Shown in pieces: positions 407 to 56,328 of a stretch of 64,000 nt of DNA. The stretch is taken from positions 871,881 through 935,880 of the forward strand of contig CAJNDS010000002.1 of NCBI GenBank assembly GCA_905221605.1, read 5' to 3'. Each line of letters begins with the position of its first letter. Position 1 is the stretch's first letter. This DNA is from Symbiodinium natans. Its lineage: Eukaryota; Sar; Dinophyceae; Suessiales; Symbiodiniaceae. A model generated the notes under the pieces. That model made no database searches. It was not told where the DNA came from and worked only from the letters and a program-made list of their open reading frames with translations. The position numbers were made by a program, and so were the translations under genes.

Positions 407-508
407 CTAAACCCTGAACTTAATGTCAGGCACGGCCTTGTCATTTCCCGCCGGGTGCAGCCGCCGGAGTTCGCCTCCCAGCTTGGCCTCCAGGTGCTTC
501 ACCAACTC
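407..508 (-). CDS. UBA1: E1 last exon ending VPDIKFRV-stop
   Basis: Reads ELVKHLEAKLGGELRRLHPA then GNDKAVPDIKFRV and stop; E1 proteins end with an acidic-VP-I-Y-like strand. The last Val codon and the TAG stop (407-409) come from a TTTAGGG unit, so the protein terminates inside a telomere-like array. The 5' boundary (TTCGAG) is uncertain. Left of it (1-406) are CCCTAAA units and a diverged inverted-repeat element near 140-300. Confidence 0.7.
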   Translation of the reverse strand, partial: ELVKHLEAKLGGELRRLHPAGNDKAVPDIKFRV

Positions 509-982
509 CTCGAACAATTTTGTTGGGGGGTTGAAGTAGGGTTTAGCGTTTAGGGTTTAGGGTTTAGGGTTTGGGGTTTATGGCTCAGGGTACCCTAAGC
601 CCTACACCCTACGCCCTAGGGCGTAGGTCTAAGGGTCGATACAACTACAACCCTCGAGCGGCTGGAGGACCTGGAGACCTGTGCCTAGACCCTAAACCCT
701 AAAGCCTCGACCATGAACCATACACCAAAAAAGCCCTGAACCCTTGATATCCTGCTTCCCTAAGTCCTAGACCCAGAATCCTTTCAACGAGACTTCGAGT
801 TCTAGAAATGCCGAGGGCTTTGGGGCTTTCGGGGTTTGGGGCTTTAAGTCTAGAAAGGTTTAGGGAAGTTCGTGGAGGTTAGGGCTTATAGGACTTCTGA
901 TAATTAGGGCTTCTACTGCCTTAGTTGTGCATTTAGGGTGTATGGGGTTACAAACCCTAAGCCCTAAAATTAAGTGTCAAGC

Positions 983-1037
983 CCGCAAAGCGCTTAAGCA
1001 AAACGTCCTCCAGTTGGATCTCACCATCGACCTCCAC
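983..1037 (-). CDS. UBA1: E1 exon: VEVDGEIQLEDVLLKRFA, ubiquitin-fold domain
   Basis: Joins as TSWDK-VEVDGEIQLEDVL, as in E1 'WDRF-V-G--TL--F'. Acceptor ATTGCAG/G. The 3' end (GC donor after GCGG) is a guess. About 30 residues of the domain expected between this exon and the last one (509-982) could not be identified. Confidence 0.72.
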
Positions 1038-2046
1038 CTGCAATGCAACCCTCTAAGCGCTGGTCTCATCGGGCTTAGGGTTCAGGGTTAGGGTCTTAGG
1101 GTTTAGGGTTTAGGGTTTAGGGTTTAGGGTTTAGGGTTTAGGGTTTAGGGTTTAGGGTTTAGGGTTTAGGGTTGTCTTGAAGTCTTGATCCCCTAAACCG
1201 TCCGAATCCTCCGTAGCCTCAACCCAAGAGCCGCCCGAAGCCCAAACGCAATACGCTCCGAAAACGAGGCACCGAAGTTTTCTGGAGGCTTGCGGGGTTT
1301 CCCAAGAATAGTAAGAATAGTAGTAATAAGGATAACAATAGTAATAGTAGTAATAGTAATAGTAGTAATAGTAATCCAGTGCAGGGTTTAGGGACGGGAT
1401 TGGAGATTAGAGGTACGGTCTCAGTCGCTTTACATTCCTTCTCAAGGTTGCTGCAAATCTCACCCAAAAGGCCGGAGACCATATAACAAGGGGACTGTAC
1501 TTCTAAACGTAGACCCTAAACCCTAAACCCTAAACCCTGAACCCTGAACCCTGAACCCTAAATCCTAAACCCTAAACCCTAAACCCTAAACCCTAAACCC
1601 TAAACCCGAAACCCGAAACCCTAAACCCTAAACCCTAAACCCTAAACCCTAAACCCTAGCCAGCCGATGGTTCTTTGTGGCTTGGGCTTGAGCGGTTGCT
1701 TCAGGGCTAACCGTGTGGTCGGCAGTCTGAGGGCTGTCGGGATTCCCGAGTCGGGATGGTAGTTTCTTGAGAGTGGCTGGCTGAGGCTACATGATTCCCT
1801 GAGCCAAAAGTAAGAACGATAAACCCTAAAGTCCCTAAAGACCCAGAACAACCTTGACCGCAACAACCCTAAGCCCCGAAAAAGCTAAACCCTAAAAACC
1901 CTAAACCCCCAAAACCACCCTACAACCTAAACCCGAAACATCCCGAAACCCTGAACCCCGAAATCCCTGGATCCTAGACACCCCCTAAACCCTAAACCCT
2001 AAAACCCTGAACACTCTGAGTCCGAACGTCGCCGTCGCAATGGGGC

Positions 2047-2079
2047 CTTGTCCCAGGAGGTGAACTCGGCAACCGAGCC
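2047..2079 (-). CDS. UBA1: E1 exon: GSVAEFTSWDK
   Basis: FTSWDK matches the E1 'WT-WD' motif that starts the ubiquitin-fold domain, which recruits E2. GC donor after GACAAG; the 5' end may instead follow GCCGAG at 2064. The intron (1038-2046) is mostly CCCTAAA units. Confidence 0.72.
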
Positions 2080-2780
2080 CTGAGTTGCCAGAAGTTTCGG
2101 CTGAGGGTTTAGGGTTTAGGGTTTCGGGTTTGGGTTCAGGGTTTAGGGTTTCGGGTTGAGGGTTTAGGGTTCAGGTAGTCCAGGAGCGTCAAATAGTTTC
2201 ACGTATCAATATCATCCCTTCCTTGTTCTGATGAAAGTGGACAACTTCAGCTGCTCAAAAATCACCACTGTCTGCTTGCAGGCATTGCGCACACAGGCTG
2301 GCTAGATCTTTAGTCCTAACGGGAACATGCACTGAAGTCGCAAGGGGGCACTGGGGGAGTAAGCCCCGATCGGCTCAGATTCAGAATCCATATGTCGACA
2401 GTATGATATGTTGCATGCAATGCTTCGGAACCGTCGTTTGGCCGTGCAGGTGTAGGTGAGGCAGGACCCCTTAACAGTCGGGATGCTACCCTACTACCCC
2501 ATTTAGGGTTTAGGGTTTAGGGTTTAGGGCTTAGGGCTTAGGGCTTAGGGCTTAGGGCTCAGGGTTTGCGGTGTACAGTTTAAGGGGGCCAGACCTGATG
2601 TGCGTGCGCTTTTGAGCCGAGGGTTTTTTATTGAAGACCCTTTTAGTTTTGGAGGGCCCTAAACCCTAAACCCTAAACCCTAAACCCTAAACCCTCAACC
2701 CTAAACCCTAAACCCTAAACCCTAAACGAGCGTGTTGGCTGCACTTGAGGTGCGTCATGTGCCCGATCCCTCGAACTACT

Positions 2781-2939
2781 CTTGGTAGCCCAGTAACCAT
2801 ATTACAATAAGGGCACCCTTTTTGGGTTGGGGGCCCTAAACCCTAAACCCTAAACCCTAAACCCTAAACCCTAAACCCTAAACCCTAGGGAACCTTGACC
2901 CCCAAAAAAGGGAAAAAAGGGTACCACTGGGCTACCGAG
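2781..2939. mobile_element. Inverted-repeat element, same family, split by a telomere-like array
   Basis: Ends CTTGGTAGCCC and GGGCTACCGAG; about seven CCCTAAA units (2833-2888) replace the middle (the TTACTTTATAA part of other copies). No clear target duplication. Confidence 0.75.
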
Positions 2940-3535
2940 TCGGTAAGTGGGGAGTTGGGCAACCCATTCAAGCCCCAAGGCCTGAAAGTACGCCCCTGAA
3001 GGGTTTAGGGTTTAGGGTTTAGGGTTTAGGGTTTAGGGTTTAGGGTTTAGGGTTTAGGGTTTAGGAACCCCCTAAACCCTGAACCTGCATCTCCTGAAAC
3101 CCCAAGCTAGGCAAACCTTTCGGACACCCCGAACAAACACGCGCAACTAGTTATCGACAATTAACCCACTAGGGGATAACTTATAAGTTCCCAAAACCCA
3201 AAGCCAAACCGCCTGAACCCCAAACCCCGTATGCCGAAACTCATACCCTGAAGCCCTGCAATCCCGTACCCTCCTACCCATAAAGCCCTAAAAGCCGAGA
3301 AGTCTAAACCCCAAACCGTAAATGAAGCAAACCTTCAAACCCTGCGTCCTATGAGCCCTTAATCCCTAAAAAACCCTAGACCCCTAAAAGGGCAAAGAAG
3401 CACCTAAACCCTAAACCCTGCACCCTAAACCCTGCACCCTAAACCCTAAGCCAACCCTAAACCCTAAATCCTAGACCCTAAATCCTAAACTCCAAACCCC
3501 AAACCCTAAACCCCAGCTGGGCTTGTCGCTGGCAG

Positions 3536-55191: not shown

Positions 55192-55317
55192 CTAGCCCAG
55201 CAACCATCTACTGATGAGGGCACCCTTCTTTCGGGTTGGCGACTTTATCAGGGGACCTTGAAACCCCCCCCCTCCCCCCGCAAAAAAAAGGGGAAAGGGT
55301 ACCACTGGGCTACCAAG
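55192..55317. mobile_element. Inverted-repeat element, same family (diverged)
   Basis: CTAGCCCAGCAACC to CCACTGGGCTACCAAG with a C-rich expansion in the middle. Another diverged copy is at about 8839-8944. Confidence 0.7.
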
Positions 55318-55934
55318 CCAGACAAGGGTTCAGGGTCTAGGGGTTTGCAGTCTTCGCCTCGCGCAGAAAAATGCCTAGGTTTAGGGCTAAGGGTTTGGGA
55401 TTAGGGTTTCGAAACCCTAAACCCTAAACCCTAAACCCTAAACCCTAAACCCTAAACCCTAAACCCTAACCCTAAACCCTAAACCCTCCAAAGATGGATG
55501 GAGCTGTCGAAGACATGCTGTTCTGTGTTGCCTGAAAGTCCGGGCACGAACCCTGCACCCCGAAATGAGGACAAAACCCTGGCAAATCACAACCCCTAAA
55601 CCCTAAACCCTAAGCCCTAAACCCTAAACCCTAAACCCTAGAACCCTAGACCGACACCATAAACCGAAACCCTAATCCCTCCAAAAGCGAACCTAGAACC
55701 TCTCAGGCCTCACCCCACGTCTGAGATTCACAGCTACCAGCCCTGAACCCCAAATGCCCGAAACCTTAGACCCTGAACCCCGAACCCGAAGCCCTGAACC
55801 CTAGACCCTAAGCTCTCAACCCTAAACCGTATACACCCTAAACCCTAAACCCTAAACCCTAAACCCTAAACCCCAAACCCTAAACCCTAAACCCTAAACC
55901 CTAAACCCTGAACCCTAAACCCTGCCGGGGGGGC

Positions 55935-55995
55935 CCATCAGAGCGAGCCCTTTCAGATACTCGCAGCCCAGGGCGCCACAGCCGACAAGAAAGAC
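55935..55995 (-). CDS. UBA1: E1 exon: second adenylation domain nucleotide-binding loop
   Basis: Reads VFLVGCGALGCEYLKGLALM plus one base. G-x-G-A-L-G-C-E is the ATP-binding loop of the active E1 adenylation domain. It may start slightly upstream (about 56007) with SSGSE. It is preceded by TTCTGAG and followed by a GC donor. The intron that follows is 11.2 kb (44732-55934) and contains telomere-like arrays at 55.41-55.92 kb, MITE-like elements at 55.19 and 54.2-54.5 kb, and the whole copia element; the next exon completes the broken glycine codon. Confidence 0.85.
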
Positions 55996-56214
55996 CTCAG
56001 AACCAGAGCTGCTTTAGGGTCTAGGGTTTACGGTTAACAGAGCTGCTCTAGGGTATAGGGTTAGGGTCTAGGGTTTAGGGTTTAGGGTTTACGGTCTAAG
56101 GTTTAGGGCTTAGGATAGGTAAGAGAGGTGTGAATGATAATAGGCAAGAAAGGCCTGGGGCTTAGGGTTTAGGGTTGGGGCTTTGGTAGGTTGGGCCTAC
56201 AAGTTAGTGCTGTC

Positions 56215-56261
56215 CTCACGCGGAAATTGGGTTCGCTGGCACGACTCTTGAAGTCCAGAAC
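56215..56261 (-). CDS. UBA1: E1 probable exon before the GCGALGCE motif
   Basis: Reads VLDFKSRASEPNFRV and ends in phase 2 at a GA donor (GTGAG/GACAGC). The next exon can start one base after AG at about 56007, giving SSGSE before VFLVG; the joined peptide has the spacing expected upstream of the E1 nucleotide-binding loop. Sequence similarity here is weak, so this rests mainly on position and phase. The gap to the next exon holds TTTAGGG-like arrays at 56.04-56.11 kb. Confidence 0.45.
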
Positions 56262-56311
56262 CTTAGGGAACCTTACGGAGCCTTAGCGAGTAGTGGGGAG
56301 TGTTAGGGAAC

Positions 56312-56328
56312 CTTGGGTACATACCGCC
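56312..56328 (-). CDS. UBA1: E1 possible upstream micro-exon (RYVPK)
   Basis: Seventeen bases between AG (TTCAAG) and a GT donor read as two bases plus RYVPK. Joined in phase 0 to the next island this gives RYVPKVLDFKS, which resembles the E1 segment RYDGQ-V-FGS just before the second nucleotide-binding loop. Donor and acceptor share AAGGTTC. It is short, so chance agreement is possible. Upstream (right) I see no further E1 exon up to 64 kb. Confidence 0.3.

Follow-up and report, generated by a model that had tools for sequence, protein, structure and literature searches.

The stretch of DNA analyzed here (the window), 64,000 nt of the dinoflagellate Symbiodinium natans (contig CAJNDS010000002.1 of assembly GCA_905221605.1, positions 871,881 to 935,880 of the forward strand), raises two questions: whether it carries a gene for a UBA1-type ubiquitin-activating enzyme (E1) in the form of tiny exons scattered among arrays of the telomere-type repeat TTTAGGG, and how the arrays came to stand where they do. 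Numerous introns and unusual splice sites are a known trait of dinoflagellate genomes. A preliminary description of the window had proposed such a gene on the basis of five motifs, which all lie on the minus strand and follow the order of the protein: SGTLGTK (31546-31566), CTLRSFP (28647-28667), FEKDDDTNFHIDF (9121-9159), AGRIIPALA (6515-6541), and ATTTAM (5781-5798).

E1 proteins were aligned to the DNA with a purpose-written spliced protein-to-DNA aligner that penalized stops and gave equal scores to GC and GT donors. The queries were yeast Uba1 (checked against PDB 5l6h) and an Arabidopsis sequence, to which the main run added a second E1 gene found in this genome (see below). The main run took in the window up to position 57 kb together with the adjoining 20 kb on the left, and leucine-rich-repeat (LRR)-like stretches, copia-like stretches, and array interiors were masked in this run and in the run without the second gene. 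The chain on the minus strand scored 447.8 half-bits, versus 73 for the plus strand, 70 for the reversed protein, and 69, 73, and 76 for three shuffles in which base pairs were permuted inside the unmasked stretches. Omitting the second E1 gene from the queries, over a slightly longer stretch, gave 528 versus 145.5 and 178, and a strict intron penalty on unmasked DNA gave 267.5 versus 39 and 43.5. Since the exons were chosen by E1 alignment with stops penalized, an open reading frame (ORF) is not independent evidence, and it is the strand, reversed-protein, and shuffle controls that bear weight. The five motifs were thus joined by a phase-consistent spliced alignment well above its controls, as the claim of compatible phases had predicted.

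Thirteen joined exons, one of them to the right of the window, amounted to 196 codons without stops, matched yeast Uba1 with an E value of 4.7e-58, and matched the Pfam family ThiF (the active adenylation domain) with 5.4e-44. Five further joined exons matched a PDB UBA1 chain at 7e-27. Pfam UBA_E1_SCCH was found on joined exons at 5.7e-16, covering the last 47 of the 254 profile positions; the middle part of the SCCH domain was weak in the spliced chain. The motif CTLRSFP was aligned to PLCTLRSFP of yeast, and its cysteine is the catalytic one. In 882 joined nt, the G+C content of the first, second, and third codon positions was 0.507, 0.418, and 0.752, the last value being a coding sign independent of the alignment. 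Identity to yeast was 105/191 for the window gene and 101/194 for the second E1 gene. Together, the alignments and their controls point to a conserved protein-coding UBA1-type E1 gene on the minus strand, predicted to be cut into tiny exons.

The main chain comprised 28 exons inside the window, 18 of which scored at least 20, rather than the approximately 34 announced. The accepted set contains 22 exons, 19 in the window and 3 to its right; five main-chain exons left of the window and nine of the ten in-window exons scoring below 20 were left out, the tenth (32683-32698) being retained. The median exon of this set is 44.5 nt, close to the 45 nt predicted. The 19 in-window exons provide 880 nt in about 51 kb, a coding density of 1.7% in place of the 3% proposed, and they run from 56001 to 4735, a shorter span than 407 to 56328. 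Donors of the 22 exons were GC in 16 cases, GT in 5, and GA in 1, the aligner having permitted only these border types. AG preceded 21 of the 22 exon starts, and the remaining exon is the first of its chain. A run with a low intron penalty gave 101 pieces across the window, judged to be mostly noise and left unused, and 1 of the 14 exons of the strict-penalty run fell in an LRR-like ORF and was dropped.

All exons are on the minus strand and are given here in protein order, with yeast residue numbers. The series begins with residues 435-456 (SEVFLVGCGALGCEYLKGLALM; 55935-56001, score 78), the start of which is uncertain (56008 in another run), followed by residues 457-475 (44694-44749, score 50), 476-490 (SNLSRQFLFRQTDV; 36343-36389, score 51), 491-503 (35332-35369, score 24), and 504-525 (34820-34878, score 36). 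The exon for residues 526-536 (FFDDNFWTSL; 34104-34136, score 39) is preceded by an intron whose position is common to the second E1 gene. Residues 537-549 (LCWNALDNVIAR; 33685-33725, score 34) and 550-559 (33369-33397, score 24) lead to a probable micro-exon for residues 560-564 (32683-32698, score 11), which fits the gap exactly and has AG/GC borders. Next come residues 565-571 (ESGTLGT; 31547-31567, score 31) and 572-584 (29791-29828), the latter found in two runs with an uncertain donor end (29762 in the main chain). The exon with the catalytic-cysteine motif MCTLRSFP (28642-28717) scored 35 as 28642-28682, its acceptor being uncertain (28682); that for residues 608-616 (LPLHCIEFA; 28465-28491, score 22) has 6 of 9 residues in common with the second E1 gene. 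A possible exon for residues 687-696 (LKQLYYKFF; 25121-25150, score 21) stands outside the 22 accepted and tested exons. The remainder consists of residues 705-717 (PFWTGTKRRP; 21371-21407, score 38), 806-835 (FEKDDDTNFHIDFLT; 9115-9204, score 80 when extended to begin at 9215), part of the joined stretch that gave the Pfam SCCH match, 836-854 (7911-7967, score 32), and 855-866 (VTAGRIIPAL; 6518-6553, score 42), again behind an intron position common to the second gene. Residues 867-889 (ATTTAMICGLVDMEFLKIV; 5729-5798) scored 39 as 5737-5798, the listed end coming from another run, and a probable exon for residues 890-903 (LDKFYNANVNLA; 4735-4776) was found in two other runs and was not chosen by the main chain.

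The E1 gene of tiny exons was therefore recovered, but not as a whole gene in the window: the accepted in-window model (56.0 to 4.7 kb) covers approximately yeast residues 432-903, or roughly the latter half of the protein. Three exons for residues 361-431 were placed to the right of the window, at 67.1 to 69.0 kb if its numbering is continued, and N-terminal candidates, which are weaker, extend to about 172 kb; the region examined for this purpose, 264,000 bases of the contig (851881-1115880), includes 5,000 N. The upstream, right-hand chain, which would include the N-terminal inactive adenylation domain, scored 79 and its single control 52.5, and other runs placed residues 410-431 on competing weak pieces, including 57416-57446, 61199-61235, and 63252-63281 in the window. 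Because of this small margin and of the competing placements, the upstream half is provisional. If the exons at 67 to 69 kb belong to the gene, it spans at least 64 kb. At the other end, weak placements of the C-terminal UFD domain competed between three alignment runs; the pieces at 992-1037, 2047-2064, and 420-536, which may not be E1, and those left of the window are mutually contradictory.

A second E1 gene was found at C1764:462419-481147. The search of the genome (759,417,921 bases in 2,543 contigs) for the SCCH family gave two places, and since it runs exon by exon, further E1 genes may have been missed. Alignment of the second gene gave 27 pieces for residues 359-1021 and a score of 642.5; the opposite strand gave 92.5. 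The two E1 proteins are identical at 93 of 191 positions. The median of its 13 measured exons is 58 nt, and that of its 13 introns 257 nt, versus 962.5 nt for 16 introns of the window gene. Four array units were counted in the 20 kb of its locus, and the 200 nt next to either end of the 13 introns are free of TTTAGGG and CCCTAAA units. Similarly small exons in an almost array-free gene indicate that the arrays are not the cause of the tiny exons, which are ordinary in this genome. Two intron positions match in place and phase between the two genes, of 32 and 26 modeled with weak junctions included. Both carry array units in the window gene, indicating that the arrays did not simply come with new introns.

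The arrays themselves occupy less of the window than the preliminary description implied, since they are present but cover 9,715 of the 64,000 nt and do not embed the gene continuously. Their polarity and spacing around short islands of other sequence, absent from that description, are the more unusual point. In the 264 kb, 623 arrays, perfect to degenerate, cover 48,530 bases, and exact three-unit words occur at 5.6 per kb, versus 3.1 per kb genome-wide. The window lies at 0.87 to 0.94 Mb of a 2.06-Mb contig, so that the arrays are interstitial, away from the contig end. TTTAGGG is reported from dinoflagellate chromosome ends (review, PMC11453091; cytology, PMC6395649), and interior signals are called rare in Karenia (PMC6395649).

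For the 22 exons, the nearest array lay at a median distance of 27 nt, whereas randomly placed sites gave 151.5 nt (p 3e-7, exons being counted as independent here and in the tests that follow). With CCCTAAA arrays denoted C and TTTAGGG arrays G, the flanking order was C-exon-G in 13 exons, CC in 4, GC in 3, and GG in 2; random placements gave C-exon-G in 27.3% (p 0.0017). Among the 17 best exons, 17 of the 21 array sides at most 60 nt away had the C-exon-G orientation (p 0.0036). A pattern with C on the left and G on the right reads alike on either strand. In the sense of the gene, the exon at 6518-6553 follows a CCCTAAA array (6559-6610) and precedes a TTTAGGG array (6369-6480), and that at 44694-44749 is placed similarly between CCCTAAA (44785-44842) and TTTAGGG (44553-44672). 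The TCP1 family, tried as a second test gene, gave 6 matches, three loci of which were viewed by eye. The exon-array association comes from one gene, and the polarity count is the result that extends genome-wide.

This polarity is not confined to exons. Gaps of at most 150 nt in the order C..G numbered 147 in the 264 kb, versus 78.7 (standard deviation, 6.5) under shuffling of the orientation labels, and the corresponding G..C gaps numbered 60, versus 78.6. Among spacings of 40 to 200 nt, 119 of the 152 C..G islands fell into a peak at 80 to 130 nt, versus 25 of the 69 G..C gaps. Nine of the 152 islands overlap the 25 exons and candidates listed at that stage. Genome-wide, two CCCTAAA units followed by two TTTAGGG units were found 63,099 times at a distance of 75 to 105 nt, versus 30,350 for the reverse order, and 143,516 versus 134,098 times at 300 to 330 nt; such matches are not independent, long arrays matching repeatedly, which should affect both orders alike. 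With starts counted once, C..G and G..C numbered 57 and 24 at 75 to 105 nt, 312 and 89 at 135 to 165 nt, and 77 and 75 at 300 to 330 nt in the 264 kb. In comparison with dinucleotide shuffles, C..G islands had a mild excess of open frames (z 2.0 and 2.1), versus -1.4 and -1.1 for G..C segments.

We propose, with a probability of roughly 0.6, that this is a UBA1-type gene whose introns grew when outward-facing telomere-repeat units were inserted into them. The exons would be joined by ordinary dinoflagellate splicing with GC, GT, or GA donors and AG acceptors, the splicing of the transcript as modeled being deduced from the alignment. The units would have been inserted at many places, each with (TTTAGGG)n at its left end and (CCCTAAA)n at its right end. 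Exons and some intron pieces would then look like islands, typically of 80 to 130 nt, because host sequence remains between the units. The copia-like and LRR-like ORFs described below also sit in E1 introns. The arrays probably arrived as units, either by telomerase-type addition at breaks or as elements with telomere-type terminal inverted repeats. Such a polarity would be expected if telomerase-type addition had taken place on each side of a break. Insertion of telomeric repeats at breaks is reported in mammals (PMC7215372), and dinoflagellate introners with inverted repeats (PMC9860276 and PMC7789003) are another precedent. If the G..C segments are the inserted part, more repeat partners are expected in them, as was counted: a 40-nt partner in other gaps of the 264 kb was found for 71 of 168 G..C inner segments and 27 of 182 C..G islands.

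Several observations weigh against this proposal. The compared segments differ in length (median gap, 105.5 nt for C..G and 230.5 nt for G..C), which confounds the count of repeat partners, and CC and GG gaps have 40-nt partners too (42/118 and 34/115). Arrays are unevenly distributed, with 0, 0, 2, and 8 units in four stretches of 3 kb at other genes, and 9 of the 22 exons are not in C-exon-G order. In the set of 16 introns (of 19 neighboring exon pairs, three that are not surely adjacent having been left out), the 5' end was G-type in 14; of the 3' ends, 11 were C-type, 2 were G-type, and 3 had no units; 9 of the 16 had a G-type 5' end and a C-type 3' end within 200 nt, windows that overlap where an intron is shorter than 400 nt. 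Both introns shared with the second E1 gene have array units without this layout. Seven C..G islands of 65 to 145 nt that are not exons lie entirely within the 13 E1 introns examined (7690-7801, 31339-31451, 35666-35730, 37420-37512, 43395-43539, 44252-44327, and 54670-54777). Islands are thus not exons alone, and appear as a general feature into which the tested exons tend to fall. No clear strand bias of acceptor motifs was detected in 142 islands of 60 to 150 nt, AGG occurring in the first 55 nt of 119 islands when these were read on the minus strand and of 105 on the plus strand, and CAGG in 59 and 60. Finally, random insertion alone explains neither the tight island length nor the nearness of arrays to exons. 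The narrow island length is likewise left unexplained by both precedents, telomeric repeats at breaks and introners. Introners are reported to insert into linkers between nucleosomes (PMC9860276), and insertion of the telomere-type units into linkers is one guess for the narrow island length. A putative role of the arrays in splicing is possible.

A closely related explanation is that each array-bearing intron is a single introner with telomere-type terminal inverted repeats, the introns being born with their arrays. Introners reported from Symbiodinium microadriaticum combine terminal inverted repeats with target duplications of 4 bp (PMC9860276). The small number of positions common to the second E1 gene (2 of 32 modeled) fits many intron gains, and the inner G..C DNA is often repeated (71/168). 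No end-to-end family was found, however, among these 71 of 168 segments with a 40-nt partner in the 264 kb, and the two shared introns also have array units near their ends. We consider this origin unlikely.

The arrays might instead be functional splicing elements, those at the 5' and 3' ends pairing and bringing the ends of long introns together. (UUUAGGG)n beside a 5' splice site would offer G-runs, and (CCCUAAA)n beside a 3' splice site would resemble a pyrimidine tract and a CUAAAC-like branch point. The exon-array distance well below chance and the nine introns with G-type 5' and C-type 3' ends agree with this proposal, as does the pairing of intron ends proposed for Amoebophrya introners (PMC7789003) and euglenid introns (PMC6221363). 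Pairing by itself does not, however, require the observed polarity, and duplex energies did not discriminate, with medians of -124.4 for true pairs, -115.5 for mismatched 5'-3' pairs, and -110.2 for 5'-5' pairs. Moreover, the second E1 gene manages without arrays, the seven intron islands are bracketed in the same way, and the motif roles come from general knowledge. We hold this function to be improbable, and find it similarly doubtful that telomere-type arrays bracket exons throughout the genome. In that reading, islands of about 100 nt between outward-facing arrays would be very numerous (tens of thousands, going by the excess of the pattern as distinct from a count of single islands), and in transcripts the splice sites of very long introns would be defined and joined by intron ends rich in G on the 5' side and in C on the 3' side. 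An assembly or scaffolding artefact, or a dead gene copy, is very improbable: repeat-rich regions are hard to assemble and a second E1 gene with shorter introns exists, but the exons follow the protein, G+C reaches 0.752 at third codon positions, the catalytic motif is retained, identity to yeast (105/191) is not below that of the second gene (101/194), the arrays range from perfect to degenerate, and 21-mer matches are equal on the two strands genome-wide (1,185,204 and 1,184,385).

If the placement of arrays with fixed polarity at intron ends holds, telomere-repeat addition would be linked to intron growth, gene finders would gain a usable micro-exon signal, and the two E1 genes of one genome, one with arrays and one almost without, would constitute a paired natural experiment.

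Other sequences were noted in and around the E1 gene. An ORF with a histone fold (58032-58595, minus strand; Pfam Histone, 2.4e-10) lies between the E1 exon at 55.9 kb and the one placed at 67.1 kb and is thus possibly a nested gene. Long minus-strand ORFs of 22-residue repeats, leucine-rich by eye, are found inside the E1 gene at 12314-14448, 37811-39616, and 40782-42929. Two leucine-rich-looking ORFs adjoin an ORF that is ubiquitin-like by eye; Pfam gave no match in the ubiquitin-like-looking stretches 13933-14448 and 42516-42929. An 11-kb E1 intron contains a polyprotein ORF, copia-like by eye, of 2,705 uninterrupted codons (45512-53629, minus strand). The sequence GGTAGCCCAGT or its complement occurs in 15 copies in the 264 kb (e.g., at 2784, 5907, and 55304 of the window), some of which face each other in pairs, as in a small inverted-repeat element, and one copy is near an E1 acceptor site. 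A cluster of facing repeats at 19790-20846 comprises arrays of AAATCCAA and its complement and units resembling TTTTGCAC, and a 58-base run at 25149-25206 is 92% C.

In comparison with known UBA1-type E1s, the window gene has in common the active adenylation domain, the catalytic-cysteine motif, and the end of the SCCH domain, in order, and it differs in that the window has no established exons for residues 1-431 or for the UFD end. S. natans is described as free-living, and Iso-Seq was made for it (PMC8045281). In the open-access literature, we found no description of telomere-type arrays with fixed polarity at intron ends. Interstitial telomeric sequences at sites of break repair are alike in that telomere-type repeats stand at nonterminal sites (PMC7215372); they differ from the arrays described here, which cover 48,530 of 264,000 bases, have short-range polarity around islands of about 100 nt, and lie near the tested exons. 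Nonconventional introns of euglenids resemble those of the window gene in that the intron ends could pair (PMC6221363 and PMC4770533), whereas the borders modeled here, GC, GT, or GA to AG, are of the spliceosomal type. Dinoflagellate introners, as described for S. microadriaticum (PMC9860276) and Amoebophrya (PMC7789003), have inverted repeats near both intron ends, which the G-type 5' and C-type 3' ends of 9 of the 16 introns of the window gene may resemble, and non-GT donors occur in Amoebophrya and Symbiodiniaceae, as modeled for the window gene. The inverted repeats of the window gene differ from those of introners in being telomere-type tandem arrays of variable length and decay, for which no single family was shown.

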